The position numbers were made by a program, and so were the translations under genes. From Weissella hellenica (lineage in GTDB: Bacteria; Bacillota; Bacilli; Lactobacillales; Lactobacillaceae), in the NCBI RefSeq assembly GCF_005405545.1, contig NZ_BJEG01000005.1, forward strand, positions 1 to 64,000: a stretch of 64,000 nt of DNA. The letters are read 5' to 3'. The notes below the pieces were generated by a model, which saw only the letters and a program-made list of their open reading frames with translations, was not told where the DNA came from and made no database searches. Position 1 is the stretch's first letter. Every line of letters starts with the position of its first letter. Below are positions 2,513-57,921 of this stretch, piece by piece.

Positions 2513-3268
2513 TTAATCAAAATTTGTATAAGGTATTAATACTTTTCTTCGTAGTTCGTCTAAAGTAATAATATTAGTTTTTTCTCGATGAATCATTCTA
2601 TGACAATTAGAACAAAGTGGTACTAAATCATTTGTTGGATCAATAGCAACTTCTTTATTTTGTAAAAAAAGAGGCTTTCTATGATGAATTTCAATAAATT
2701 TATGACCTAATTCACCATACATCCGTTCAAAATTAAACCCACATGCCATGCAATTATATCCATAATAGTTTAAACATGCTTGCCTATTTTTAGAATTGCG
2801 TTCATATCTGGCCGTATAAAACTGAATTTTTTTACCCTCAATTAATTTAACACTAGTCAATTCACTAGTATCATTAGATATTACATCTATTGCTTTCGCT
2901 ATAGCATCGTCCAAGTATCTCAAGGATTGTATATTTCCCTTTAACCCAAGATTATGTAGGTCCTCGAGTGAAACATTAACATTGGCATTCTTCACTAATT
3001 TTAAAGTAAACCACGGCCCTTGGCTTGAAAAATCGAAACCAGTAACGCTATATTTAGCGTCATTAATATGATAGTTATAAACGTCGCGCTCTATAACCGT
3101 TGTTTTTAGGATTATTTTTTGTGTGGGTTTTGACTCGTATATATATATAGTATCGCCTATTTTCACACTTTTATTGTTATGCTGCACCCAGTGAACCGTA
3201 TCCAGGTCGTTAAATGCATTTGTAGCATCATATTTATTTTTATTAGACGGTATTATGAATGAACTCAT
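2513..3268 (-). CDS. EVE-like domain HNH endonuclease (candidate type IV restriction enzyme)
   Basis: The N-terminal ~90 residues (FIIPSNKNKYDATNAF, then VKIGDTIYIY) resemble an EVE/PUA-like domain, a fold that reads modified bases. The C-terminal part (about 165-230) is an HNH/McrA-type nuclease with a zinc-binding CxxC at 173/176, the EIHHRKPL motif (His195-196), ND at 213-214 and a second CxxC-H at 219-223. EVE-HNH fusions known in other bacteria cut DNA containing modified cytosine, so defence against modified phage DNA is the inferred role. No methyltransferase or partner subunit is adjacent, as expected for a stand-alone type IV enzyme. The N-terminal domain call rests on pattern recognition only. 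Confidence 0.75.
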   Translation of the reverse strand: MSSFIIPSNKNKYDATNAFNDLDTVHWVQHNNKSVKIGDTIYIYESKPTQKIILKTTVIERDVYNYHINDAKYSVTGFDFSSQGPWFTLKLVKNANVNVSLEDLHNLGLKGNIQSLRYLDDAIAKAIDVISNDTSELTSVKLIEGKKIQFYTARYERNSKNRQACLNYYGYNCMACGFNFERMYGELGHKFIEIHHRKPLFLQNKEVAIDPTNDLVPLCSNCHRMIHREKTNIITLDELRRKVLIPYTNFD

Positions 3269-3569
3269 TTATACATACACTTTCTTTTTTATAACATTAA
3301 AACTTAAAGTAAAAAAGTTGCCACTCACAAAGTAAAAATTGGGCCAATTGTAATGATACATCCTTCAAAGATTGACCTCAATATTTTTATTACGATTTTC
3401 AGTACTTAAATAAATCCAAACTTTGATTGTCGCCATTTTATATTTATTTTTTGTATAAATTAAAACAAACTAATTAAAATCTAATAAAATCAACAAAAAC
3501 ATTGATTTATAGCCTTCTAAAAGTTAAAATTTAACATATTAACTATATTAAAGGAAGCCAGGTAATGAT
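3269..3569. other. AT-rich intergenic region
   Basis: This gap lies between the divergent HNH nuclease and ABC exporter genes. It is very AT-rich and must hold both promoters, but I see no convincing -35/-10 pair, hairpin, operator or small gene in it. Confidence 0.5.
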
Positions 3570-4325
3570 ATGAATAAGGTCAAAGCTTTATATAAAGTCT
3601 ATATAGTAAGCAGCCTCAATAATAAAGTTGTTTTTATGTACAATTTATTACTCCCAATTGTCTATCTGTTAGCGACAAACTTAAAATATTTTTTCCAACC
3701 GGTTCAGACCACTAACCAAGAATTAATCAATACAGCAAGTTACTTTTGGGCGTATATAATCATCGTCACGCTACTAAACATGGTTACTTTTGAAATGCTT
3801 TCAGAGCGTGAATCTGGCTACTTTAAAGAATTATTTTTCATCGTTGGATCAAAGTGGCATATTTTATTAGCAGATTTATTAGCACAAGTCACTATTTTAG
3901 TGTTAGAAATAACCTTGTTCAATATAGTTTTTTTAGTTATTTTTAGAACAATCAACTTTGGGATTCTTTTAGGTGGTCTGTTGGCCACTCTATTGTTAAC
4001 CATCCCCGTAACATGTAGCAGTTGCATATTTTTAATACTGAAAGTAAAAGCGCAAACTGCCCCCATTATTGAAACAATAACTTTATTTGGTATGTTTACA
4101 CTATTAGGTATCAAGAATGAAAATACTTTAATTAAAATTGTTAATTTGCTAAATCCTGTTGAATACTTAGCTCAAAATTCAAATAATATTAGTTTACTAA
4201 TGCTAGGAAACATACCTTCCGGAACATATGTTATACAATTTATAACGATTACGACGTTTTATATTTTAATTGGTGTCTGGGGATTATCAAAGTTTACTAT
4301 TTCACCCATAGAAAATCGCGCTTAA
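3570..4325 (+). CDS. ABC-2 type exporter permease subunit
   Basis: This 251-residue polytopic membrane protein has about six hydrophobic segments (near 18-42, 53-75, 95-122, 127-150, 160-180 and 222-243), the layout of ABC-2 permeases. The cytoplasmic loop after helix 2 contains EMLSERESGYFKEL, in the position where these families contact the ATPase. The start is the ATG following AAAGGAAGCCAGG; an ATG five bases upstream runs straight into a stop. The gene is followed after 19 bases by its ATPase. Together they would form a small exporter (drug, peptide or immunity type); the substrate cannot be told from the sequence. Confidence 0.8.
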   Translation: MNKVKALYKVYIVSSLNNKVVFMYNLLLPIVYLLATNLKYFFQPVQTTNQELINTASYFWAYIIIVTLLNMVTFEMLSERESGYFKELFFIVGSKWHILLADLLAQVTILVLEITLFNIVFLVIFRTINFGILLGGLLATLLLTIPVTCSSCIFLILKVKAQTAPIIETITLFGMFTLLGIKNENTLIKIVNLLNPVEYLAQNSNNISLLMLGNIPSGTYVIQFITITTFYILIGVWGLSKFTISPIENRA

Positions 4326-4344
4326 ATTAGGGAGGTGTTAACAA

Positions 4345-5031
4345 ATGCAAGTAAAGAAACTTTCTATTACTTATGGTAAAAATCAGGTTTTATCTAATTT
4401 AGACTGTAAGTTTGAAACTGACAAACTAAACGTTATTTTAGGACCCAATGGAACCGGGAAAACTACCCTATTAGACACAATAGCCGGATTAAACAAACAT
4501 GATGAACAAGCTTTGTCTGGCTTTCCAACGCAAAAACAATTAGCCTATAAGGCACAGCAACTTCATTTTTTCCCTTCTCTAACAGTTAAACAAACCATTC
4601 AGTTATATGCAGAAATTGAAAATCATCCTAAAAATTTTAATAAAACTAGCACGATGAATACGATTTATAATCAGGTTATCAAGGGTATTATAGATAAAAA
4701 AATTGGTAAATTATCTGGTGGTGAAAAACAAGTTGTCTTAACTTACTGTAACTGTTTATTAGATAGAGAGCTCTACCTATTTGATGAACCGTTAAGCGGT
4801 GTCGACATAAACAACGCTAACTTAATTATTAAAATGATTGCTGCGTTAGTTACTGAAAAACATAAGCAAGTCATCTTAACCTCACATGATATTGAATTAT
4901 TTGAAAGCTTTCCAATAAACATCGTTGTGCTAAATCATCAAAAGTGTATGTTTTCAGGAACTGATCATGAATTATTAAACGCAACCAATAAAGCACAGAT
5001 TAATGATGCCTTACGCATAATTCTTAAATAG
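4345..5031 (+). CDS. ABC transporter ATP-binding protein
   Basis: The 228-residue ATPase domain shows Walker A GPNGTGKTT (about residues 33-41), the signature LSGGEKQ (about 123-129), Walker B LYLFDEP with catalytic Glu, a D-loop (SGVD) and the switch His in TSHD. A Q-loop glutamine is present in YKAQQLHF. It partners the ABC-2 permease just upstream, with which it forms a two-gene operon (RBS GGGAGGTG). No regulator or third component is attached. A bidirectional terminator follows. Confidence 0.88.
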   Translation: MQVKKLSITYGKNQVLSNLDCKFETDKLNVILGPNGTGKTTLLDTIAGLNKHDEQALSGFPTQKQLAYKAQQLHFFPSLTVKQTIQLYAEIENHPKNFNKTSTMNTIYNQVIKGIIDKKIGKLSGGEKQVVLTYCNCLLDRELYLFDEPLSGVDINNANLIIKMIAALVTEKHKQVILTSHDIELFESFPINIVVLNHQKCMFSGTDHELLNATNKAQINDALRIILK

Positions 5032-5054
5032 AACTATCTCAAAAAGTATACACA

Positions 5055-5113
5055 AAAAACATCATAACCTACTGTAAGAACTCTTAACTATCAGTAGATT
5101 ATGATGTTTTTTT
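5055..5113. terminator. Bidirectional terminator between convergent genes
   Basis: A stem of about 16 bp with one mismatch (5059-5074 with 5092-5107) is flanked by an A run on the left and a T run on the right. It can serve the ABC operon on the plus strand and the secreted-protein gene on the minus strand. Confidence 0.8.
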
Positions 5114-5208
5114 GACAATACTACTCTTATCAATGTGTTCAAATTTGCTTCTTATTTGAATGGCCACCAGAATATTAAATTCAAACAATTAATTATTCAG
5201 GATCATTT

Positions 5209-6282
5209 TTAATTAAAGCTACCGCTAAAAGCCTTCTGCAAAGATTCAAATGAGTAGGCTGACTCAGATGTGTCAACCGTCCACTTTTTACCATCTTTAA
5301 TTAATTTAATATCTTGTCCATCAGCTTCACGCATAGGCATCTTCTCTAATACTTCTGGAAACTTTTGCACAAGTGACTCTTTAACAGCTCGATTTACTTC
5401 ACTATATGACATTTCACCATTAGCATTTTGTGTCTCATCTACATGACGTTGCGTTTCCGATATAACCGATGATAATTCAGATAGCTTTACCAAAGTTGGT
5501 GTTACTGTAATTTCAGCAGTTGTTGGTGTTGCTGATTTAATTACATATTTAACAGATCCTTTTTTATTGTTCATATCTTGAATCTGCTTAACCATATTTG
5601 CTGCTGCTTCATCTGCGATTGTATTATTAAACGCCCTTGTTTCAAGGAAATCTCGTGCAACATTACGATATGAAACTTGCTCATCTTCTAATTTATTAGT
5701 CAATACTTTGTCATACGAACTATTATCTTGCTTGTTTAAGAAAACATTGTCAACATAACTTGTCACAGCCTTTTGAGAATCTTGCGTATGATCTTGGTAC
5801 TTTTTAGTGTTAATCTTCACCTTAGTTGTTACCATCTTGTTTGTACCAGATGCCATCGGTGCCACTTCTAAGGTATATTTTTTATCTTTAGTAACTGGGA
5901 AAACAACGTAACCACTAGTCGAATCACGTTTCGCTAGTTTTTCATATCCCATAGTTGAAAAATCATCCCCACTACCATAAATTTGCACTGATTTAATGCG
6001 ACTACCACTTTTATCTTTTAATTTAATATCGCTGGTCATTAAGCTAATCTTGGGACCATTGTTTTTGATGTGTAAATCTAAAGCTAAATAAGCTTTATTA
6101 CTAGCTAACGCCTTTTTATTGTCAGGAACAATATATTCACCACTCTTAACTTTAACTGCGACCCCATTTGAAGGTGCTGAAGCTTTAGCAGCGACAGTAT
6201 TTACACTGCCACCAAAGCCCGCTAGCGTACTCACTGTCATAAAACCTGCAATAGCAATGCCCAATTTGTTATGCATTTTCAT
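5209..6282 (-). CDS. Secreted DUF5105-type protein without a lipobox cysteine
   Basis: The 357-residue protein starts with a signal peptide (MKMHNK charged region, hydrophobic core to about residue 24, likely cleavage after TVAA near residue 31). Residues ~38-150 form a beta-rich DUF4352-like part. Residues ~155-355 match the DUF5105 pattern (helical repeats ending in LIKDGKKWTVDTS) as I recognise it. Relatives are usually lipoproteins. Here the segment STLAGFGG looks like a lipobox with Phe in place of Cys, so the protein is probably released or held by other means. It is a single gene with RBS GGGG upstream of the ATG. The function of this family is not known. Confidence 0.65.
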   Translation of the reverse strand: MKMHNKLGIAIAGFMTVSTLAGFGGSVNTVAAKASAPSNGVAVKVKSGEYIVPDNKKALASNKAYLALDLHIKNNGPKISLMTSDIKLKDKSGSRIKSVQIYGSGDDFSTMGYEKLAKRDSTSGYVVFPVTKDKKYTLEVAPMASGTNKMVTTKVKINTKKYQDHTQDSQKAVTSYVDNVFLNKQDNSSYDKVLTNKLEDEQVSYRNVARDFLETRAFNNTIADEAAANMVKQIQDMNNKKGSVKYVIKSATPTTAEITVTPTLVKLSELSSVISETQRHVDETQNANGEMSYSEVNRAVKESLVQKFPEVLEKMPMREADGQDIKLIKDGKKWTVDTSESAYSFESLQKAFSGSFN

Positions 6283-6527
6283 AATAAATACCCCGTTTTA
6301 TTAATCTGCATTTAAACATAATTCCCCATATCTATATGTTTAAGCCAACTTAGTAATATTATATTTGGAAAGCATCATCAATGAATAAACATCATTTATG
6401 ATGAGAGATATCCTAACTAAATTATAACAAAAATATGACAAAGCTTGTTGTTGAAGCAACTAATTGATATATTTCATTAAAATATAAAGTAATATAGATC
6501 GATAATATATCATAAGAGCCACCAAAA

Positions 6528-7298
6528 TCATCCCATATAGAGACCGCCATCCACAACAATGCATTGGCCCGTTATGTTACTAGATAATTCTGATGCTAAA
6601 AATAGTGCTGTACCGCTCACATCTTTTGGTGTGGTTAAGCGCCTGGTTGGGGTTTTAGCAATTAATGAATCTCTAACATCTCGCTTTGTAAACTCACTAG
6701 AACTGGTTGGGTAAGTTAGCCCCGGTGCTATCGCATTAACGTAGATACCATATGCGCCTAATTCACTTGCCATGGTACGATTTAACCCAATTACGGCTGA
6801 CTTACCAACAATATAATCATGATAAGGAATTGTTGGTATATGAACTAAATCACTGGTTAAATTAATAACATGACTACTGTTGTTGGCTTTTAAATATGGT
6901 AAAACTGCTTGCATCACATTGACAATGCCTTTGACACTACCATCTATTTGGTCAAGATAGTCTCTCCACGTCACATCTTGCAAAAGTTTCCTATTTTTGG
7001 GATCAAATTCATAGTGACTAAATGCATTATTAACAACATTGTCAATTGTTCCAAAATTTTCAATAATTGTGGCAATCATATCCTTAACGGCTACATCATC
7101 ACGAACATCGCAAGCCATGGCAATTGCTTGACCCCCATTTGCTTTAATTAAGGATACAAGTTCATCTGCACTATTGCGCCGATTTAAATAGTTAACAATA
7201 ACGAATGCACCATTTTCAGCATAAGTTTTTGCAATTGCTGCACCAATTCCCCGTCCACTACCCGTAACTAAGGCTACTTTATTTTCTAATAACATCAT
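6528..7298 (-). CDS. Short-chain dehydrogenase/reductase, last gene of TPP-controlled operon
   Basis: This is a classical FabG-like SDR of 256 residues. It has cofactor motif VTGSGRGIGAA (about 11-21), the NNA motif (100-102 region), catalytic Ser149, Tyr162 and Lys166 (YIVGK), and the C-terminal GQCIVVDGGLYMG. It should use NAD(P)H to interconvert a carbonyl and an alcohol. It begins 11 bases after luxC-like ends, with RBS AAGGAG, as the last gene of the NCS2-luxE-luxC-SDR operon. Its likely task there is to reduce the aldehyde made by the LuxC-type enzyme to an alcohol (inference). It can also be read as a fatty-acid 3-oxoacyl reductase by family resemblance, but the context does not support that. 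Confidence 0.85.
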   Translation of the reverse strand: MMLLENKVALVTGSGRGIGAAIAKTYAENGAFVIVNYLNRRNSADELVSLIKANGGQAIAMACDVRDDVAVKDMIATIIENFGTIDNVVNNAFSHYEFDPKNRKLLQDVTWRDYLDQIDGSVKGIVNVMQAVLPYLKANNSSHVINLTSDLVHIPTIPYHDYIVGKSAVIGLNRTMASELGAYGIYVNAIAPGLTYPTSSSEFTKRDVRDSLIAKTPTRRLTTPKDVSGTALFLASELSSNITGQCIVVDGGLYMG

Positions 7299-7309
7299 TT
7301 ACTCCTTAT

Positions 7310-8776
7310 TTATTCAATGTCAGGATCAAATTGTTCACTATATCGTTCAGCAGATGCTTCAATATCCGTAACATGCACCAAATCTAGTAGGTTAAAACCA
7401 CCATCATGATGCCAACCTGGCACAACGTGATTCATTTCCCCTAACGCACTAATGCGATTAACGCCCAAAGATCCTAAAACATCAGACATTTCAAATAAAC
7501 GATTTGGTGCTACGGCAATACCGGCAGATTGTAAATAAGGACGATATGGTTCCAATGTTTGTCCGATATCATTTAAATTATTAACAGCAAAAATATTGAT
7601 TGCTCTATTTAAAGGTGAAACCATAAAATCAACTTTATCTCGATATATAATTGTCCAATCTGTATTTTTTTGACTGACCATAGCTATCGTCGTTGAATCA
7701 CTAATACTTTCTATATCGGCTTGCTGTCTCATTTTATTAATACTGGTCTGCTCAGCTTCAATTAGTTGTGCCCTTGGATATCTGATTTGATAATTTTGTA
7801 ACTCACTTGCTAATAAATTTGCAAACTCTTTAGGGGTCACTGCGCCACCTTTTTCTATAAAAATAGATTGCGGCGCCAAACAATTTTGTTGATCATATAT
7901 TGAGATATCTTCAGCAACTGCCTTAATTAAAGTTGTATATCGATCAGTTGATATGGCTTCCTGACCAATTAATGCTAATCCAATTTTATAGCCATAACTC
8001 AATACCTTTTTAGTAGGTCCTGATTTTTCCTTAATACTTTTAACAGCACTTTGACCACCACAAACAATTACCGTATCCGCTAATTCAATAGCCTTATTTT
8101 CTAACTCAGTACCACTTTGCCATGGTAGAATTGCAATCGCATCTGCGAATTTAGCATCCACTTCTGCTAAGGATTTGACAAACAATGATGGCATAATAGC
8201 TTCTGCAAAAGATAACTTTCCAAGCGTAGCCGATTTAACAAATGCTGCCATCAGTAAATTCCATATTTGAATGCCGGGTACATTACCAGAAAAAATTTGA
8301 AATATTAAATCAGGACCATAAAATTTAGAAAAACCACCACTATGATTAGGTTGAAAATCATCTAAAATATTACCAAACATCCCTACTTCAGACTGTATAA
8401 ACCGCCGTAAGTCTTTTTTTCTAAATAATCGAATAAATTGTCTTAATTCTAACGAAATCTGTAAGGCATCATAACCAGTGATTATTGGTAATGTTTTTTC
8501 AGCCAAGATACGTAACTCGTATTCTGAGTTAGTCCATTTCTGTGCAGCTTTATCAATAATGCTTATTATTTCCTCAACTGTTAATTGGCTTAAATACGAT
8601 TTTTGATTAATTCTTAAATTTTCTGCCGTTTCATCTAATAATTTTGTCGTGACATCAGGATAAGACATGTGAATACGCTGATTTCCCTTGCAGATAACTT
8701 TTTCTTCTAATTCTGCAATATTCACTTGTGATGGCAGGTGAAATATATTAATTGTAATTTCACTGGTTGCTGTCAT
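7310..8776 (-). CDS. luxC: LuxC-type acyl-CoA/acyl-protein reductase
   Basis: The 488-residue protein fits the LuxC family in length and motifs, including the dinucleotide region TVIVCGGQSAVKSI and the active-site cysteine in DQQNCLAPQ (Cys299). LuxC enzymes reduce an activated acyl group to an aldehyde with NADPH. There is no luxAB here, so bioluminescence is excluded. The gene overlaps luxE by 4 bases (ATGA), which implies translational coupling and matches the LuxE-LuxC complex known from Vibrio and Photobacterium. Control by two TPP riboswitches points to a thiamine-related carboxylate rather than a fatty acid (inference). Confidence 0.85.
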   Translation of the reverse strand: MTATSEITINIFHLPSQVNIAELEEKVICKGNQRIHMSYPDVTTKLLDETAENLRINQKSYLSQLTVEEIISIIDKAAQKWTNSEYELRILAEKTLPIITGYDALQISLELRQFIRLFRKKDLRRFIQSEVGMFGNILDDFQPNHSGGFSKFYGPDLIFQIFSGNVPGIQIWNLLMAAFVKSATLGKLSFAEAIMPSLFVKSLAEVDAKFADAIAILPWQSGTELENKAIELADTVIVCGGQSAVKSIKEKSGPTKKVLSYGYKIGLALIGQEAISTDRYTTLIKAVAEDISIYDQQNCLAPQSIFIEKGGAVTPKEFANLLASELQNYQIRYPRAQLIEAEQTSINKMRQQADIESISDSTTIAMVSQKNTDWTIIYRDKVDFMVSPLNRAINIFAVNNLNDIGQTLEPYRPYLQSAGIAVAPNRLFEMSDVLGSLGVNRISALGEMNHVVPGWHHDGGFNLLDLVHVTDIEASAERYSEQFDPDIE

Positions 8777-9891
8777 TTTATCTCTCTTCTATTTAATAAC
8801 TCATCCATTGCAATTGAACACCCTTTTGCTTCCGAACCTTTAATGCGTCCTAATAAGGTGAACCCTGTCGTATCTTGTACAGCCATGTCTTCAGTTAAAA
8901 TAGCCAGGCAAGAATCCCAATTCGCTAAGTCATAATAAGCTATAAGACCTCTTTCCCCTATTTTAACTGGCATTAAGGTTTCCGGATTTAATATTTGAAT
9001 GTTAACCCAATGCGGTGTTTTTTTAGTGTAATAAATTTGTTGTTCTTGATACGCATCCAAAATATTCCGATCATAACATTGTGAACTAATTTCTGTCATA
9101 CCATACATATTAATAATTTGTTGGCGTTTGACGCCGAAAAGAGTCATTAAATTAGTATATAAATCTATCATGCTTACGGCTTCAGACTTACCTTTAAAGC
9201 CACCTGTATCAAAAATAATGCTATCATTTGATAGGCTAAATGTTTTATGCAATTGTTTTAGGTGGTTTAATAAATGTACGTAAGAAAACGATGCACCCAG
9301 TAATAAAATTGGTTCATTATTTGAATTAGCTTGTTCTAATGCTGTAATTAAATGATCATAATCCATTTGATTATTTCTAAAAAAAACGTGACTATTTTGA
9401 GTGCCAAAATTTTTGATAGCTGTTGAAACGTATCGTGATAAAGATGAATTTGGATTTTCTAGTTGATCTGGAAAGAGTGCAAATATTGTTATTTTATCCT
9501 GGTTTGGTAGAACATATTTTTTGAATCCGCTAATCATAGACTGTTCCCATACCAGTAGATTAGACAAATAATGATGACTTTTTTGTGTTGGATTTGTTGT
9601 ACCACTAGATAAAAAGACATCCGCTGCTTCACTTGGATTTGTTGTCGTTAGCTGCAAATATTTGTATGCCTGAATAGGAATTAATGGAAAATATTGCCAT
9701 TGATTAATCGTTAATGGCGTTTTCCTTTTTAATTTTGCATATTCTCGGTATGGTTGATTATATTTAAATTGATAATTAAATATCGTCATCGCTAATTCAT
9801 TAAATTTCTGATTTTTTTCGTTCTCCGTCATTTCCGTTTGTGTAATGAATGCCAAAATTTTTTGTTGTAATGCTTCTTTTATATCAGCCAT
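8773..9891 (-). CDS. luxE: LuxE-type acyl-protein synthetase
   Basis: The LuxE/PaaK-like adenylate-forming enzyme has phosphate-binding loop FLSSGTTNPTQKSHHY, the adenylate motif NMYGMTEISSQ, and the C-terminal KGCSIA motif. The cysteine of KGCSIA (Cys358) corresponds to the acyl-accepting residue of LuxE. The chosen start is the ATG at 9891 (372 residues). It has TCAGGAG six bases ahead, while an upstream in-frame ATG at 9906 would place that ribosome binding site inside the gene. The start overlaps the permease stop by 8 bases. The family activates a carboxylic acid with ATP and passes the acyl group to LuxC. The natural acid is not known here. Confidence 0.85.
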   Translation of the reverse strand: MADIKEALQQKILAFITQTEMTENEKNQKFNELAMTIFNYQFKYNQPYREYAKLKRKTPLTINQWQYFPLIPIQAYKYLQLTTTNPSEAADVFLSSGTTNPTQKSHHYLSNLLVWEQSMISGFKKYVLPNQDKITIFALFPDQLENPNSSLSRYVSTAIKNFGTQNSHVFFRNNQMDYDHLITALEQANSNNEPILLLGASFSYVHLLNHLKQLHKTFSLSNDSIIFDTGGFKGKSEAVSMIDLYTNLMTLFGVKRQQIINMYGMTEISSQCYDRNILDAYQEQQIYYTKKTPHWVNIQILNPETLMPVKIGERGLIAYYDLANWDSCLAILTEDMAVQDTTGFTLLGRIKGSEAKGCSIAMDELLNRREIK

Positions 9892-11167
9892 GATTTCTCC
9901 TGACATTATTAATTAAATTCGGTATGTTGATTAATAAAATTTGTAACACTAACGCTGAAATTGCCCCGATTAAAATCATATTAGACAATAACTCACCCAC
10001 AAGGCCATGCCAACCACTTGAATAATTAGGTAACGCTACCCCAAGTGCAATAGATATCCCAATTATCATTTGATTTGCTTCAGTCGCTGCTGCTTTTTTC
10101 ATAATATTAAATCCAGTCATAATCAATGACGTTGCTGCAGGTAGGAATATACCACCAATTACAGGGCTTGGTGTCATTGCTAAAAACGCACCAAACTTAG
10201 GCATAAATCCCAGTATGATAAATAAGCAAGCAGCAATAATAATTGGTACTTTAGATTTATTACCAGTTAGTTTCATAATTCCGACGTTTTGCGCAAACCC
10301 TGATGTTGGAAAACCACCAAATAAAGAAGATAGAATTGATCCAGCAGATTCACCAATTAAACCATTTTGAATACGCTTAGGTGTAATATCTTCATTTATT
10401 ACTTCCCCAACTGCCTGGTAAACCCCTAAAGATTCAACCACAGCAACGATATATGCAACTAAAAATGTTAGAAATATGACGCCATTAAATTTAAGTTCTC
10501 CATATGGTAGCAAACTAGGTAATCCAAACCATGCTTTCGTCGACAATGCACTGTAATCAACAACGTGCAGTGAAAAAGCTAATACATCACCAACAATCAG
10601 GGCAATTAAAAATGAAAATCGTTTCCAAACCCCCTTACCAAATAGTGACAAAATAACCACAATTGTTGTTGTTGTAATCGCTAATAGCAATGTATTAGGT
10701 GAAGAAAATCCTTTATCTCCCGGATAACCACCTAAAAATTCAGATAAAGTAAAACTTGATAAAGAAATACCGACTAGAAAAATTAAAGTACCCGTAATTG
10801 CTGGTGTTAAAATTTTAATTAATTTATTAATTAACCCTGTGATTGATAGTCCAAATACAATCAGGGCGCTTAACAAAATTGACCCACTGGCAGCGGTTAA
10901 TTGCCCTGTCTTTCCTGCACTAATCATTAACGCATCAAATGATGCAGACGGTCCCTGAATAATTGGTAATTTTACTAAACGTGTTACTTGCGTTAGAGTA
11001 ACTAGACCTGAAACAATAAAAATTGTGTTAACTAAATTGGTTGATAAACTAAGTGAAAGCCCAGCAGCCGTGGCAACATAAATTGGGTCTAGCCAAACAT
11101 TTGATACAAATACGTGTTGTAATCCAGCTAGGCCATGATCAATAACGCGCTTATTTTTAAGATTCAT
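9884..11167 (-). CDS. NCS2-family nucleobase/pyrimidine-type permease under TPP control
   Basis: This 427-residue membrane protein has the NCS2 (xanthine/uracil permease) pattern: 12-14 hydrophobic segments, the IIQGPSASFDALM segment early on, and the GGFPTSGFAQNVG and FLPAATSLIMTGFNI stretches typical of the family. It is the first gene after the tandem TPP riboswitches and is translationally linked to luxE. NCS2 members carry purines, pyrimidines or related rings. The regulation suggests that a pyrimidine or thiazole precursor or breakdown product of thiamine is the cargo (inference). RBS AGGAAT precedes the ATG. Uracil or xanthine transport is the alternative by homology. Confidence 0.85.
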   Translation of the reverse strand: MNLKNKRVIDHGLAGLQHVFVSNVWLDPIYVATAAGLSLSLSTNLVNTIFIVSGLVTLTQVTRLVKLPIIQGPSASFDALMISAGKTGQLTAASGSILLSALIVFGLSITGLINKLIKILTPAITGTLIFLVGISLSSFTLSEFLGGYPGDKGFSSPNTLLLAITTTTIVVILSLFGKGVWKRFSFLIALIVGDVLAFSLHVVDYSALSTKAWFGLPSLLPYGELKFNGVIFLTFLVAYIVAVVESLGVYQAVGEVINEDITPKRIQNGLIGESAGSILSSLFGGFPTSGFAQNVGIMKLTGNKSKVPIIIAACLFIILGFMPKFGAFLAMTPSPVIGGIFLPAATSLIMTGFNIMKKAAATEANQMIIGISIALGVALPNYSSGWHGLVGELLSNMILIGAISALVLQILLINIPNLINNVRRNHG

Positions 11168-11190
11168 CTTATTCCTATTCCTTATCCAAA

Positions 11191-11228
11191 TAAAAAAGCA
11201 TTCTCTTTATCGACGTAAAAAGAATGCT
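11191..11228 (-). terminator. Terminator controlled by the downstream TPP aptamer
   Basis: On the minus strand, stem AGCATTCT/AGAATGCT (11221-11228 with 11197-11204) is followed by a T run. It lies between the second TPP aptamer and the NCS2 start codon, so it is the likely expression platform of a TPP OFF switch. Confidence 0.85.
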
Positions 11229-11250
11229 GTAAAGTAAAATTTAATTACTA

Positions 11251-11326
11251 AACCGTCACTTTCCTACGCTAGTTTAAACTAGATCAGGTTCAGAGGGTAC
11301 TTCTCAGTCAATCGACGCCCCTAGTG
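11251..11326 (-). ncRNA. TPP riboswitch (THI box), downstream copy of a tandem pair
   Basis: Read on the minus strand it holds the THI-box signatures GGGGCGTC, CTGAGA, the ACCCTCTGAACCTGAT block and GCGTAGGAAAG. The last block differs from the usual CGTAGGGAAG by a G-to-A change, which may weaken ligand binding. It is followed by its own terminator (11191-11228). When TPP is bound, transcription of the NCS2-luxE-luxC-SDR operon should stop here. Confidence 0.92.
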
Positions 11327-11419
11327 CCTATTTAATTAATTTTAATATTATCCCATATTACTGATGCCTCCATACATTAAATATGCTGCCAATTAAGCGA
11401 GAGTAAAAATAGGTAAAAA

Positions 11420-11453
11420 CAAAAAATGCCCTCTGACTTTGCAGAGAAGCATT
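11420..11453 (-). terminator. Terminator controlled by the upstream TPP aptamer
   Basis: On the minus strand a stem AATGC-tt-CTCTG paired with CAGAG-g-GCATT is followed by TTTTTTG. It lies just past the first-transcribed TPP aptamer and before the second one, so each aptamer has its own stop signal. Confidence 0.8.
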
Positions 11454-11468
11454 AGTAAACAATCACTA

Positions 11469-11541
11469 TAATACTTCCCTACGTTAGTACAAACTAAATC
11501 AGGTTCAAAGGGTGCTTCTCAGTCAATCGACGCCCCTAGTT
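11469..11541 (-). ncRNA. TPP riboswitch (THI box), upstream copy of a tandem pair
   Basis: On the minus strand it contains CTGAGA, ACCCTTTGAACCTGAT and ACGTAGGGAAG, in consensus order and spacing. Its first 26 bases are identical to those of the second copy about 215 bases downstream, which suggests duplication. A terminator follows directly. Tandem TPP switches are known from a few Bacillus thiamine genes and give a steeper response. Confidence 0.93.
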
Positions 11542-11590
11542 TCAGTTAGTGTATCACACTTTTAAATTTAATTGGGAACAATTTTTATTA

Positions 11591-12139
11591 TCAGTTATTT
11601 TCCCAGTCACTTTTTAGTAATGTCCAAATATACCCATCATGGTAGCCATCCTCTAATCGTTCATTTGCACGAATTAAACCATCTAAATGGAATCCTGCTC
11701 TTTCTGCAACCTTATTACTGCGTGTATTTTCAACTGCTGCATGAATTTCGATTTTATTAACTTCATACTCAGTAAATCCTAATTCACACATGCCTATCAC
11801 TGCTCGTTACATAATCCCTTTACCAACAAATTTAGTAGCCAACCAATAACCAATTTCCGTACTATTATCTAATTTGAGAAACCTATTAAAGCTAATGGCA
11901 CCAGCAGGTTGCTCGTTAAAAAGGATAATTGTCGTAACTGAATCGCCTTTACCAAAATTCTCTAAATTCCTTACTAATGCACGTTCTTCATCCGCTACAT
12001 TTTTCATATCTACTGACCACATCAACCATTGTGATAACTCTTTACGGCTGGCATCAATTAAATCATAAATTGCTTTAGCATCAATTTTTGGTCTTGGTAG
12101 TGCTAAACTTACCTCTTCATCAATTTTATATTGAAACAT
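11591..12139 (-). pseudogene. GNAT acetyltransferase with an in-frame nonsense codon
   Basis: The two halves read in the same frame on the minus strand: residues 1-110 end with FVGKGIM, then TAA (11807-11809), then RAVIGMCELGF and the rest to SDWENN. Joined, they form a complete RimJ/RimL-type N-acetyltransferase of about 182 residues. It has the acetyl-CoA loop around GKGIM and the family ending KIEIHAAVENTRSNKVAERAGF. The stop replaces a sense codon in the acetyl-CoA binding loop, so the gene is most likely inactive. A strong AGGAGG ribosome binding site remains. It lies 24 bases downstream of the frameshifted LD-carboxypeptidase, so a formerly joint operon has decayed. A sequencing error is possible. 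Confidence 0.85.
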
Positions 12140-12163
12140 CCTGCAACCTCCTGCAAGTAAAAA

Positions 12164-13146
12164 CTATTTTTCATAAACTGTTATCTGTAACGTCTTGCTA
12201 TCAATTGCAACTTCGCCACCTAACGGAAATGTAAAAATCGGCTGCGTATGCCCAAAATCCACATCGTAAATGACTGGTATCTGTTTAAGGATTGGATATT
12301 TATCTAATATGTATAATAGTAAATTATGTGTCATACCACACTCTTTAGGAAATCTACCAATTACCAACCCTTTTACATCTGGATTAACTTGTAAAAACTG
12401 CGCTAATAATCGATCAAATTCATAAGCATCACCCTCTTCAGCTTCTTCTAAAAAACCAATCGGTTGTACAATTTTCCTAAAATAAGGCGTACCAAATAAT
12501 AAATGATACGTTTGAATATTGCCACCAATTATAGTTCCTGTGGCGTGACCCTCATTATATACTTGCCATTTATTAGGTAAAAAATTCCTTGGAATTGATG
12601 TGTCATACATGGATCGCTTGTATAGACATCATTTTCCTCTAAATCATAACGCGCACCTTCTTGTCGGTCCGACACTGATTTCAACCATTGACTAGTTTGA
12701 AAGTCCTGTAGGGCATCCATTTTAAACGAAGAATACGCTGGTGAATAATACGTCACCAACCCTGTTTTAGCAAAAATAGCTGTATGTAGACTAGTTGTAT
12801 CAGAATAACCAAAGAAAAATTTGGGATTATTTTTGATTAAGGACCAGTCAATGTATGGGAGCAATTCATTGGCATTGAACCCACCGATAGTCGTCATAAC
12901 TGCTTTAACTTGCTTATCACGAAAAGCATCATGTAAATCAGCTACTCTTGCTGCAATTGAGGCTGAAAATAGTTGATCATTTTCATAAATATGGTCACCA
13001 AAAGTCACTTTAAAGCCTAACCGTTCTAATCGCTCTTTGGCAATCAAATTAGCTTGCATGCCACCAACTTTTTCTAAACTTGAGCTTGGCGAAATAACAC
13101 GAATTTCATCACCAGATTGTAATTTTTGCGGATAAATTTTTTTCAT
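12164..13146 (-). pseudogene. LD-carboxypeptidase (LdcA/MccF family, S66), frameshifted
   Basis: The N-terminal part (13146 down to about 12611) carries the S66 start MKKIYPQKLQSGDEIRVISPSS and the nucleophile serine in FFFGYSDTTSLH. The C-terminal part continues in another frame from YDTSIPRNFLPN through GGNIQTYHLLFGTPYF and DVDFGHTQPIF, which holds the catalytic His. The switch occurs around 12608-12612 and is explained by one missing base (GAT CCA TGG TAT reduced to GAT CCA TGT AT). The intact enzyme would trim cross-linked muropeptides or cleave microcin-type compounds in the cytosol. Both halves are otherwise well conserved, so the mutation is recent or is an assembly error. Confidence 0.85.
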
Positions 13147-13275
13147 TTTGTATACCCTTTCTGCGATTCTCTGACACCTTACTTGCTACACTCTATCAAA
13201 AATAAAAATATTCACATTTTTTAATTTATCATTTTACAATATTGATATTATAGCGTTTTATTATGAGAAAATCTA

Positions 13276-13305
13276 TTGAAATTAAAATGAAATCTAGTAT
13301 ATAAT
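13276..13305 (+). promoter_or_regulatory. Promoter of GNAT gene
   Basis: -35 TTGAAA (13276-13281) and -10 TATAAT (13300-13305) with an 18-base spacer, 43 bases ahead of the start codon. Confidence 0.6.
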
Positions 13306-13348
13306 TAGACTAAAATATCGACTAACGTTCAAAATACTAGGAGTAACG

Positions 13349-13891
13349 ATGCAAATCGAATTAAAACAATTAAGTGTACAGGATTTATTACCATTCTGGG
13401 AATTAGCTTTTAGTAATCCTGATGCTGAATGGACCAAATGGAATGGTCCTTACTTTCATGACACACTTCCTACCAAAAAAGATTTTATTGATTTAAAACA
13501 ATTCAACCCTTATTTAGAAAATCCAATGCGTAAAATAATTTGGCTTAATAATGAAATGGTCGGTCTCGTCTCCGCCTACTATGAAGATGTACCACTAAAC
13601 CAATGGTTGGATGTCGGTATCACCGTTTATAAACAAACTAACTGGCGCCATGGTATCGGCAAAGCAGCATTAGATCAATGGATCACAGAACTCTTTGAAA
13701 CAACTAATTTACCACACGTTGGTTTAACTACCTGGTCAGGAAATCTTCGTATGATTGCTCTCGCTGAAAGTTTACAATTGAAAAAAGAAGCCGAAGTTCG
13801 TCAAGTTCGCTTTTGGCAGAACAAATACTGGGACTCAGTTAAATATGGGGTTTTACGTGATGAATGGGTAAATAAAGCCAATCAAAAATAG
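13349..13891 (+). CDS. GNAT family N-acetyltransferase
   Basis: This 180-residue protein has the RimJ/RimL-like GNAT layout: strand IIWLNNEMVGLVSAYY (about 66-81), WLDVGITVYKQTNWRHGIGKAALDQWI (about 91-117) containing the acetyl-CoA loop RxxGxG/A as RHGIGK, and HVGLTTWSGNLRMIALAESLQLKKEAEVR near the C-terminus. It transfers an acetyl group from acetyl-CoA to an amine; the acceptor is unknown. It has its own promoter, RBS AGGAG and a terminator, so it is a single-gene unit. Confidence 0.82.
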   Translation: MQIELKQLSVQDLLPFWELAFSNPDAEWTKWNGPYFHDTLPTKKDFIDLKQFNPYLENPMRKIIWLNNEMVGLVSAYYEDVPLNQWLDVGITVYKQTNWRHGIGKAALDQWITELFETTNLPHVGLTTWSGNLRMIALAESLQLKKEAEVRQVRFWQNKYWDSVKYGVLRDEWVNKANQK

Positions 13892-13936
13892 TCGTCAATC
13901 TAATCATTTAAATGATAGATTGACGACTATTTTTTT
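13889..13936. terminator. Terminator between GNAT and FNT channel genes
   Basis: A long stem starts TAGTCGTCAATCT (from 13889) and pairs with AGATTGACGACTA, then seven T follow. It can act for the GNAT gene, and possibly the convergent FNT gene. Confidence 0.85.
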
Positions 13937-13953
13937 AATAACAAATCAATATT

Positions 13954-14835
13954 TTAATCAACGTAATCCGTCTTGGTCTTATTCATCCAAGCATAGGTCA
14001 TTCCGATGATTAAAGAACCACCAACATAATTACCAATTAAGGCAAAAAATAAGTTGTGTAGCACACTACCCAATGTCATACCAGCAATCGTACCGTTTGA
14101 AGCAAAGAAGGCTAGTGAAAAGGCTGGGAAATTAGCAATAACGTGTTCGTAACCTAAGAAAGCGAAGATAAAGATAACGAAGATAATGGCCATCACCTTA
14201 CCCGCATCATCCTTCATGCGCAGGTTAATGAAGAAGGCCGTATTAACAACAATGTTAGCAAAAATGGCTTCGACAAAAATTTGAATTGACGATTTACTTA
14301 GTTTACCAGCGATACCGTCAAATAAATAATTACTTGCCGGTAGATCTTGGAATGCCCCCGTCAGTGAAATGAGGTAAGCAAAGAAAATTCCCCCAATTAA
14401 ATTGAACAATAGTGTCGTTCCTAGAACCTTAGCCGCCGTTGAGAAATGAATCTTTTTACGGTAAACCCCCACTGTCACAAACAGCATATTGGACGTTCCT
14501 AATTCAGCTCCCATAAAAATGATCATCACCAATGACCAACTAAACATGAAAGCAAAAGTGAATTTACCAGAGCCTGGCAATAATTTTTCAGCTTGTAGTG
14601 CTGTCCCGAATGCGGCCGCCGTTCCTAAAGTTAAGAATAAGGTTGCCAGCATTGCGCGAGCAGCATAACGTGCATAACTACTTTGGAACAAAGTAACTTT
14701 ATTCATCAAAGCAGCATCTATTTTTCTAAATAGTGGTGATTTTTCAGCTACGGTTTCATCTACTGAATCTATCGGCTTTGCTATATCAAAATCTGGTAAC
14801 TGGACCGGTTTTGAAGTTGACACATGTGCATCCAT
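13954..14835 (-). CDS. Formate/nitrite transporter (FNT) family channel
   Basis: The 293-residue membrane protein has six hydrophobic segments after a ~50-residue cytosolic N-terminal extension. FNT-type signatures include LGTAAAFGTALQAEKLL in helix 1, ELGTSNMLFVTVGVYRKKI (helix 2-3 loop) and GNYVGGSLIIGMTYAW at the end. FNT channels pass small monocarboxylates with protons. It lies 31 bases downstream of lactate oxidase on the same strand, with RBS AAGGAG, and no formate lyase gene is near. Lactate (or pyruvate/acetate) movement is therefore a sensible alternative to formate (inference from context). Confidence 0.85.
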   Translation of the reverse strand: MDAHVSTSKPVQLPDFDIAKPIDSVDETVAEKSPLFRKIDAALMNKVTLFQSSYARYAARAMLATLFLTLGTAAAFGTALQAEKLLPGSGKFTFAFMFSWSLVMIIFMGAELGTSNMLFVTVGVYRKKIHFSTAAKVLGTTLLFNLIGGIFFAYLISLTGAFQDLPASNYLFDGIAGKLSKSSIQIFVEAIFANIVVNTAFFINLRMKDDAGKVMAIIFVIFIFAFLGYEHVIANFPAFSLAFFASNGTIAGMTLGSVLHNLFFALIGNYVGGSLIIGMTYAWMNKTKTDYVD

Positions 14836-14866
14836 CAGTACATGCTCCTTTTATCTATGTGATTAT

Positions 14867-15961
14867 TTACCAGGCATCGCGCAATGTAAAATTGCGAACA
14901 TCATCAATGGTTTGGGTACCAGCAAGTTGCATAACTAATGCTAACTCATCCTTAAAGAAGTTAAATACTTGCTCAACACCCGTTGCCCCACCAAGTGATA
15001 AGCCATAGATAGCTGGGCGCCCAATTGCCACTAAATCAGCCCCCGTTGCTAATGCCTTAAAAACATGTTGGCCACGACGGACACCACTATCAAAGACAAC
15101 AGGTGCTCGTCCACTAACGGCATCAACAACTGTTTCTAATATCTCAAAGGCTGCAGGACCACCGTCTAATTGACGACCACCATGATTAGTGACCCAAATA
15201 CCACGCGCACCAGCGTCTAATGAACGATAAACATCTTCAGCACTTTGGACTCCCTTAACGTAAACTGGAATATCTGTATGACTTGCAATATATTCAACAT
15301 CACGTGGTGACAATTTTTGCTTAGCCGACTTATACACAGCATCCATACTCTGGCCCACTCCAGATTGATATGCTGCGACGATGGGCATTGGCAACGGAAA
15401 TGTGAAGTGATTACGCTTATCAGCTTCACGATTACCATCCAAAGTAGCATCGGCTGTTAAGACAATTGCCTTTGAACCATTACGTTCAGCTGTTGCAATA
15501 ATTTGATCATTAATGCCGTTATCTTTACTCATGTAAAATTGGAACCATTGATTAGCATCTTGTCCGCCAGCTTCACGAATATCTTCTAACGTTGTCGATG
15601 CAAACGAAGATGCTGTAAAGATAGAGCCGAAATTTGAAACTCCTTTTGCCGAATATTTTTCTCCCTCAACGTGTGCTAATCCATGTGCAGCAACCGGTGC
15701 CATAATAATTGGCGCTGTTAGATGTATATCTTGAAAATCAACCGCCGTATCAGGATGTTCAACATCACGCAAAACACCAGGTACAATGACCTTTTTATCA
15801 AAAGACGTAATATTCCGCTTATAGGTGATTAAATCACCCGCACCACTTTGAATGTAACCATACCCCCCACGTGGAATGGTCTCTTTAGCTGCCTCTTCTA
15901 AATCGTTAGTATTAACAAAGTCTACTCTTCCTTCGCGTTCACTAGCAATGTACTCACTCAT
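14867..15961 (-). CDS. lctO: L-lactate oxidase (FMN alpha-hydroxy-acid oxidase)
   Basis: The 364-residue TIM-barrel flavoenzyme has the family active site WVTNHGGRQLDGGPA (catalytic His260, Arg263) and IIMAPVAAHGLAH at the FMN site. It also has QWFQFYMSKD and the phosphate-binding end VFDSGVRRGQHVFKALATGADLVAIGRP. It oxidises L-lactate with O2 to pyruvate and hydrogen peroxide in the cytosol. It heads a two-gene unit with the FNT channel. A perfect cre site sits between its promoter and start codon, so glucose repression through CcpA is expected. The pyruvate it yields can feed the pdh complex encoded elsewhere in this window. Confidence 0.9.
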   Translation of the reverse strand: MSEYIASEREGRVDFVNTNDLEEAAKETIPRGGYGYIQSGAGDLITYKRNITSFDKKVIVPGVLRDVEHPDTAVDFQDIHLTAPIIMAPVAAHGLAHVEGEKYSAKGVSNFGSIFTASSFASTTLEDIREAGGQDANQWFQFYMSKDNGINDQIIATAERNGSKAIVLTADATLDGNREADKRNHFTFPLPMPIVAAYQSGVGQSMDAVYKSAKQKLSPRDVEYIASHTDIPVYVKGVQSAEDVYRSLDAGARGIWVTNHGGRQLDGGPAAFEILETVVDAVSGRAPVVFDSGVRRGQHVFKALATGADLVAIGRPAIYGLSLGGATGVEQVFNFFKDELALVMQLAGTQTIDDVRNFTLRDAW

Positions 15962-15995
15962 AAATATATCCCCTTTAAAATTTAAAATATCAAAA

Positions 15996-16009
15996 TGTAA
16001 CCGCTTACA
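15996..16009 (-). promoter_or_regulatory. cre site (CcpA operator) of lctO
   Basis: TGTAACCGCTTACA fits the cre consensus TGWAANCGNTNWCA at every position. It lies about 20 bases downstream of the predicted transcription start, where bound CcpA would block elongation. Confidence 0.85.
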
Positions 16010-57574: not shown

Positions 57575-57856
57575 AAAAAAAGCCGCTTCTAGGATTTAAC
57601 CTAGAAACGACTAATCGTGTTACCATTCTATTTTTTTCAATTAATTACTCAAAAGAAACTCTAAACGTGCAAACAGGGAGCGATATGATGCTTTATTTAT
57701 ACGTGTGCCTAATAACGAAGACCAACCCGTGTATTATTCATAGTCTTGCCATTCATAATACCCAATCACAGGCCATTTTCTATGTCAGCTTCATACTACA
57801 TTGCACCAAATTGTAGCTCTCTAAATTTCAATCTAACATGTACTTTCCTGATCACT
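57575..57856 (-). ncRNA. T-box riboswitch, methionine type
   Basis: On the minus strand the leader shows stem I landmarks: GGAAAGTA at its base, AGAGAGC with TTGGTGCAA in the distal loops, and a specifier region with ATG (57774-57776) after GAAA. It then has the T-box-like ATGGTAACACG (near 57614-57626) and a terminator stem TTTCTAGG/CCTAGAAG followed by T7 (57575-57608). Uncharged Met-tRNA would stabilise the antiterminator and switch on metQ-msrA. The AUG specifier is inferred from position. Confidence 0.85.
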
Positions 57857-57921
57857 TTGTTTAAAATCTATAGTACTCATATTAGATGATTCTTATTTTT
57901 AAGTCAATAGTTTAATAATCG

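Follow-up and report, generated by a model that had tools for sequence, protein, structure and literature searches.

Why does Weissella hellenica encode relatives of the bioluminescence proteins LuxE and LuxC behind two thiamin pyrophosphate (TPP) riboswitches? The locus lies in a 64,000-nt stretch of this genome (assembly GCF_005405545.1, contig NZ_BJEG01000005.1, positions 1 to 64,000), which is termed the window below. Including its riboswitches, the whole feature covers positions 6528-11547 on the minus strand. Open reading frames (ORFs), Pfam and Rfam confirm the arrangement that had been proposed in a sequence-only reading of this DNA, namely permease-LuxE-LuxC-SDR (short-chain dehydrogenase/reductase) behind two TPP riboswitches:

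11459-11547, minus strand: TPP riboswitch aptamer 1 (Rfam RF00059, 71.1 bits, gathering threshold 54.3)
11429-11448, minus strand: terminator-like hairpin of riboswitch 1 (hairpin scan)
11244-11332, minus strand: TPP riboswitch aptamer 2 (Rfam RF00059, 70.7 bits, gathering threshold 54.3)
11197-11228, minus strand: terminator-like hairpin of riboswitch 2 (13 pairs, T run)
9884-11167, minus strand: NCS2 permease gene (427 aa; PF00860 Xan_ur_permease, 248 bits), proposed importer
8773-9906, minus strand: LuxE-type acyl-protein synthetase gene (377 aa; PF04443 LuxE, 97 bits)
7310-8776, minus strand: LuxC-type acyl-thioester reductase gene (488 aa; PF05893 LuxC, 354 bits)
6528-7298, minus strand: SDR gene of a TPP-linked family (256 aa; adh_short_C2, 185 bits, PF13561/PF00106), proposed aldehyde-to-alcohol reductase

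The permease and LuxE genes overlap by 23 bp, the LuxE and LuxC genes by 4 bp, and a gap of 11 bp separates LuxC from the SDR gene.

The operon is best read as a TPP-repressed system for the uptake and reductive salvage of a thiamin-derived acid, with a probability of roughly 0.73 if the acid is left general. Judged by its gene content, the feature is probably a new thiamin-salvage module, real and widely conserved. The basis for this reading is the operon itself, the aptamers with their terminator-like hairpins, the catalytic residues, the recurrence of the riboswitch at 32 of 33 loci, the exchangeable importers and the TPP-linked relatives of the SDR. From these, we infer the substrate, the direction of flux and every chemical step.

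At low TPP, transcription would pass the two serial riboswitch terminators. The NCS2 permease would then take in a small heteroaromatic acid, LuxE would adenylate its carboxylate with ATP and hold the acyl group as a thioester on Cys363, and LuxC would receive the acyl group on its own Cys299 and reduce it to the aldehyde with NAD(P)H. Finally, the SDR would convert the aldehyde to an alcohol that rejoins TPP synthesis. The likeliest acid would be 4-amino-2-methylpyrimidine-5-carboxylate, yielding hydroxymethylpyrimidine (HMP) for ThiD and ThiE. The TPP control, the acid-to-aldehyde-to-alcohol logic and the tie to thiamin salvage had all been put forward in the sequence-only reading. At the level of sequence they hold, given two aptamers above the gathering threshold, LuxE, LuxC and SDR families with their expected residues, and thiamin genes in the operons of relatives (thiW, thiM and tenI-thiO-S-G-F with the LuxE-LuxC pair, LuxEC; thiMED with the SDR).

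The hairpin scan found five terminator-like hairpins in 5.7 kb, compared to 2.7 (sd 1.7) in shuffled sequences. The minimum-energy fold of leader 1 joins the 3' part of the aptamer to the terminator's 5' arm (z -2.9), as expected for a putative transcriptional OFF switch; the same alternative pairing is less clear in leader 2 (z -1.7). The genome (1.81 Mb) contains seven TPP matches, six of them above the cut-off. From this density, the chance of a match on the right strand in the 600 bp preceding any given operon is p ~0.0012. Other TPP sites precede thiD-tenA-Thiamine_BP and thiW-thiM-thiE, and the match below the cut-off precedes an ABC_cobalt-family permease (PF09819; read as YkoE-like) followed by ABC genes. 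On contig 1 (L010:3978-8365), tandem TPP riboswitches are followed by thiS-thiF-thiG and then by genes for an M20 hydrolase and a dicarboxylate symporter; neither thiO nor thiH is among the ORFs listed for that region.

A TPP riboswitch was detected at 32 of the 33 distinct LuxEC loci gathered from Lactobacillaceae, other Bacilli, Azospirillum, Pantoea and Pseudomonas. Two models were used for this count, Rfam and R1, an own TPP model that matches 21 of these aptamers by construction because it was built from them. At the Rfam gathering threshold, 28 of the 32 loci scanned are positive. Matches below it were obtained for L043 (49.0 bits), L064 (42.2 bits) and L068 (52.7 bits), and the riboswitch of L136 was detected with R1. 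The outgroup LuxC loci L069, L112 and L113 have no TPP riboswitch according to R1. Tandem aptamers are found in the window, L008, L009, L029, L030, L031 and the Niallia locus L040; at L061, the riboswitch heads a longer operon and is located ~3.9 kb ahead of LuxE. The LuxC matches of G213, G410 and G741 (weak, different LuxC) and the loci L027/L028 (same records as L008/L009) were excluded before counting. L068, which is cut by a contig end before the SDR, and L136, whose LuxE and LuxC are both broken in two, were retained though incomplete.

A profile of three LuxC proteins matched 13 of 397 genomes in the Lactobacillaceae sample, 12 at full length and one (G213) with a 20-bit fragment. In all 12 full-length cases, one or two TPP riboswitches are followed by permease, LuxE, LuxC and SDR in this order. 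Within Weissella, LuxC was matched in none of 27 further genomes. In the Bacilli sample, 13 of 398 genomes matched, 11 of them strongly (including the genome of the window; LuxC of G482 is cut by a contig end). One further family contributed matches in 4 of 200 genomes, two of them new, and another yielded, in 4 genomes, the two already known. Among plasmid records, 27 contain LuxC at 1e-30 (13 from Pantoea, 9 from Azospirillum and one each from L. plantarum, L. brevis, Niallia, Priestia and Pseudomonas), and 9 of these 27 were examined as loci. No relative was found in viral contigs, and phages gave one weak match only (24% identity).

Plasmids of L. plantarum (10.3 kb) and L. brevis (21 kb) carry the operon (L038/L039) with identical accessions for all four proteins, a sign of possible mobility. 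In L. holzapfelii (L009:8001-9126), LuxE is split over two frames, by error or decay. The same two explanations apply to a Pseudomonas silvicola plasmid (L136:5532-8992), where the LuxE match and the LuxC match that follow a TPP riboswitch are both divided in two. L067:10457-10759 holds divergent TPP riboswitches, one leading to LuxE-LuxC-SDR and the other to an ABC_cobalt-family (PF09819) gene read as YkoE-like.

The residues expected for acyl transfer are conserved. LuxC Cys299, as named in the sequence-only reading, is invariant in 12 of 12 aligned proteins and aligns with the DQQxC cysteine of LuxC in PDB 7xc6 (7xc6_A, 1.3e-20). The LuxE cysteine named there as Cys358 is likewise the right residue, invariant in 11 of 11 proteins and aligned with KGCS of LuxE in 7xc6 (7xc6_E, 5e-22); its number is 363 when counted from the first ATG, and 358 from the Met at residue 6. 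The two-frame LuxE of L009 was omitted from this alignment (A2). In the LuxC tree, 30 operon proteins fall into a single clade (support 89/95) that is separate from LuxC of lux operons, and this clade contains a group with an ABC importer or none found (96/94).

According to a tblastn annotation of the loci, LuxE-LuxC-SDR is the constant core and the importer varies. An NCS2 importer is encoded in Lactobacillaceae, Niallia, L059 and L060; an ATP-binding cassette (ABC) ATPase, a permease and an NMT1/THI5 binding protein are encoded in Priestia, two Azospirillum loci, L061-L064, L066 and L098. Among the reference genes searched, no importer was found at two Pantoea loci, L065, L067, L099 and L136. 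The permease of the window is 57-76% identical to those of the 11 other Lactobacillaceae operons. PbuX is its nearest curated model (TIGR03173), and like PbuX it belongs to the NCS2 family; 14 of 15 permeases inspected have the Q-N pair of transmembrane helix 10. It differs from PbuX in failing the cut-off (316.7 of 414.15 bits), and from UraA at the residue after the E-x-x-G motif of transmembrane helix 8, which is Val in 12 aligned operon permeases and His in UraA. A 40% identical NCS2 relative in Paracoccus (L135:5593-8353) adjoins an 8-oxoguanine deaminase gene and has no TPP riboswitch by R1. Compared to solved structures, the first distinct matches of the binding-protein profile are 4nmy (1.8e-19), which we take from its title to be thiamin-bound, 3qsl, THI5 (3e-11), ThiY (1.2e-9) and 2x7p. 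The binding protein was not assigned to ThiY, as it scores below the SsuA-family cut-off and the ThiY match is distant.

The SDR links the operon to a wider set of loci, most of them with TPP riboswitches. Among 12 aligned proteins, Tyr162 and Lys166 do not vary and Ser149 hardly does, in agreement with the triad named in the sequence-only reading; with the Ser-Tyr-Lys triad and its Rossmann fold family, the protein has the features of a classical SDR. The SDR tree contains one clade of 34 rows (support 96/98) that includes SDRs under TPP riboswitches without LuxEC. Among plasmid records with the SDR and no LuxEC, 9 of 25 were examined and 7 of these have a TPP riboswitch. Operons of the type TPP riboswitch-thiM-thiE-thiD-SDR were found on plasmids of Neorhizobium, Gemmobacter and Rhizobium (L129:5613-8780, L130:5667-8786, L133:5600-8753), hosts from Rhizobiales and Rhodobacterales. 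In Rhodococcus, Mesobacillus, Pseudochrobactrum and Exiguobacterium, the riboswitch precedes the SDR and an FMN monooxygenase of the NtaA/DmoA family:

L132:7884-10120: TPP riboswitch, SDR and monooxygenase
L137:5812-8199: TPP riboswitch, SDR and monooxygenase
L139:5818-8051: TPP riboswitch, SDR and monooxygenase
L138:5760-7877: TPP riboswitch, SDR and monooxygenase

The monooxygenases of Rhodococcus, Mesobacillus and Pseudochrobactrum score 476-529 bits with TIGR03860 (cut-off 279.7), and that of Exiguobacterium lies in two frames. The SDR tree includes only Rhodococcus of these four loci, the other three having been found by similarity. A minority of the 430 monooxygenase records was examined.

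Because the SDR family is also located under TPP riboswitches without LuxEC, the SDR is probably the shared aldehyde-to-alcohol step of thiamin salvage, which LuxEC would feed from the acid. Enzymes of the NtaA/DmoA type cleave C-N or C-S bonds and thereby yield an aldehyde. LuxEC and the monooxygenase may thus be two sources of the aldehyde used by the SDR, and the TPP-SDR-monooxygenase operons possibly represent a second undescribed salvage route. More tentatively, the SDR family could be the hub of thiamin-fragment repair, receiving its aldehyde from an acid (LuxE-LuxC), from a pyrimidine C-N/C-S adduct (NtaA/DmoA) or from the surroundings. This would amount to two undescribed routes to HMP, one reductive and one oxidative-dealkylating.

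Which part of thiamin the acid would derive from is less certain than the salvage itself. For 4-amino-2-methylpyrimidine-5-carboxylate, giving HMP, the chance appears close to even. Two LuxEC genomes without ThiM, both scored 100% complete, tip the balance to this acid. It is also favored by the importer families, whose known members transport thiamin pyrimidines or rings of the pyrimidine or purine type: NCS2 is a nucleobase family, with the 40% identical relative beside an 8-oxoguanine deaminase gene, and the binding proteins match THI5 and ThiY. The pyrimidine acid further suits the NtaA/DmoA chemistry, as C-N/C-S cleavage of Pyr-CH2-X would yield the pyrimidine aldehyde. Thiazole genes in LuxEC operons would then supply the other half of thiamin.

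A number of findings weigh against reductive salvage of the pyrimidine acid, either as a whole or in this choice of substrate. The enzymes are present at L099 with no TPP riboswitch detected (Rfam, positions 5000-7000; R1, whole locus), the support of the LuxC clade is moderate and the outgroup branches are long. Two Caballeronia SDR loci among the nine examined have no TPP riboswitch, and a Streptomyces relative of the monooxygenase (51%) occurs with neither SDR nor TPP riboswitch. Every thiamin gene found inside LuxEC operons is a thiazole gene (thiW, thiM, tenI-thiO-S-G-F); thiD and tenA were not found there with the tblastn references, a set without thiC. Gene presence was counted in 24 operon genomes (12 Lactobacillaceae and 12 other Bacilli). 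ThiM is present in 21 of them, comprising all 12 Lactobacillaceae and 9 of the others, and is enriched in Lactobacillaceae (12/12 operon genomes vs 245/397 overall, Fisher p 0.0027). ThiC is present in 12 of the 24, being absent from 11 of 12 Lactobacillaceae and present in 11 of 12 other Bacilli, and is enriched in the Bacilli sample (9/11 operon genomes vs 196/398, p 0.03). Since ThiC is present or even enriched with the operon, the operon is no stand-in for lost HMP synthesis.

ThiG passes the Pfam cut-off in 11 of 12 Lactobacillaceae operon genomes; only the seven strong cases (≥321 bits, including the genome of the window) were counted, the rest being partial matches of 23-33 bits. The earlier expectation that the operon tracks the loss of thiC and thiG is contradicted by these ThiC and ThiG counts. 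ThiC and ThiG do not discriminate between the pyrimidine and the thiazole, and the ThiM enrichment is compatible with either.

The strongest competitor is the thiazole half itself. Here, 4-methylthiazole-5-acetate, an oxidised hydroxyethylthiazole (HET), would be imported, reduced to HET and phosphorylated by ThiM. The gene neighbors favor it: thiW lies inside the operon of the Leuconostoc-type locus L029, thiW-thiM inside that of L030 (also Leuconostoc-type), thiW ahead of NCS2 in Niallia L040, and thiM after the SDR in L064 (G570). NCBIfam cut-offs are exceeded by ThiM of L064 and by ThiW of L040, and the Pfam cut-off by the HK gene of L030. In G549, tenI-thiO-thiS-thiG-thiF precede LuxE (L061: tenI-like, thiO, thiS-like, thiG, thiF); the TMP-TENI, DAO, ThiG and ThiF genes of L061 pass the Pfam cut-offs, and its thiS was identified by eye. 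The abutting TPP-SDR-thiM genes of G485 (L122), together with LuxEC-SDR-thiM in L064, point to HET and count against the pyrimidine acid, as does the frequency of ThiM in operon genomes. However, G506 and G549, both scored 100% complete, contain the operon and ThiC and gave no match to ThiM (G482 gave only a 21-bit match), and the seven Lactobacillaceae operon genomes (of 12) with a strong ThiG also count against the thiazole. Importers of the NCS2 and THI5/ThiY-like kinds are known to act on pyrimidine-type rings, and NtaA/DmoA chemistry does not easily yield the thiazole acetaldehyde. Moreover, the LuxEC-linked and the ThiM-linked SDR of G485 belong to different subclades, which suggests different substrates. 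While the neighbors favor the thiazole, the absence of ThiM and the transporter families favor the pyrimidine, and the thiazole acid, though a serious contender, is considered less likely.

An improbable alternative is that the operon makes a fatty or other aldehyde or alcohol unrelated to thiamin fragments and is under TPP control for another reason. LuxE and LuxC owe their names to fatty-acid reduction and match the long-chain models, and the top curated model of the SDR is 3-oxoacyl-ACP reductase. All three remain below the respective cut-offs, LuxC (112.5 of 750 bits) and LuxE (95.7 of 550 bits) by far, the SDR with 266 of 292 bits. The bioluminescence fatty-acid reductase (7xc6) shares the KGCS cysteine of LuxE and the DQQxC cysteine of LuxC. 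In contrast to LuxCDE, the two genes lie behind TPP riboswitches and are joined to an SDR and an importer, and their LuxC belongs to a separate clade. As the sequence-only reading had noted for luxAB, no second lux gene, luxD and luxAB included, was recognised by eye among ORFs of at least 90 aa at window positions 3000-16000, without a genome-wide luxD/luxAB search. A fatty product would also have to accommodate thiamin genes within such operons, importers of the NCS2 or THI5-like kind, relatives of the SDR in thiMED operons, and a riboswitch kept from lactobacilli as far as Azospirillum and Pantoea.

Reduction of intact oxidised thiamin (thiamin acetic acid) to thiamin, followed by phosphorylation, would need no ThiM, ThiD, ThiC or ThiG and fits the patchy occurrence of ThiM, ThiC and ThiG; 4nmy as the closest solved binding protein would fit it too. 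This reading is very improbable, as thiamin acetate is about twice the size of the small bases that NCS2 carriers handle and the recurring co-operonic precursor genes (thiM, thiW, thiO-S-G-F) would be left unexplained.

The thiamin salvage known so far starts from alcohols, amines and formyl-amines. The ThiXYZ, YlmB and TenA pathway converts formylaminomethylpyrimidine (FAMP) and aminomethylpyrimidine (AmMP) to HMP. The putative acid salvage resembles it in that a product of thiamin breakdown would be imported and converted under TPP control, in the ABC version with an NMT1/THI5 binding protein; it differs in that an acid would be reduced, by different enzymes, rather than an amide or amine hydrolysed. 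ThiW/ThiM thiazole salvage is likewise TPP-controlled, and thiW and thiM are located within some LuxEC operons. Here, a three-enzyme reduction is added, and LuxEC is found in two complete genomes without ThiM. If acid salvage is correct, oxidised vitamin fragments would be nutrients rather than dead ends, and LuxE and LuxC, regarded as light-organ enzymes, would also serve vitamin metabolism. Genes that now carry the annotations acyl-CoA reductase and fatty acid-CoA ligase in food lactobacilli, Azospirillum and Pantoea would be accounted for, as would their presence on small plasmids of L. plantarum and L. brevis.

The sequence-only reading had regarded LuxC/LuxE under TPP control as undescribed, and the available excerpts of the open-licence PubMed Central (PMC) literature contain no description of such an operon with a thiamin riboswitch. 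Nothing on a LuxEC-SDR operon appears in the excerpts of PMC6478431, PMC7793946, PMC12815266 and PMC4475313. On salvage of the thiazole acetic acid or the pyrimidine acid, the same body of excerpts offers nothing useful apart from one citation: 4-amino-2-methylpyrimidine-5-carboxylate is a urinary thiamin metabolite of the rat, according to a 1964 title cited by PMC7780320. The excerpts of PMC10881298 list the vitamers HMP, AmMP, FAMP, cHET (a thiazole-2-carboxylate) and HET and the salvage genes tenA and thiM, and name no side-chain acid of the kind proposed here. ThiW is described in PMC5627462 as specific for 'THZ', an abbreviation spelled out there as thiazole carboxylate.

The operon in the window itself contains no thiamin gene in its ORF list. 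Upstream of it (11590-13146), GNAT-type and LD-carboxypeptidase-type genes, both named by eye, each appear to be split over frames. Farther away, a T-box leader is located at window positions 57600-57864 on the minus strand (95.7 bits).

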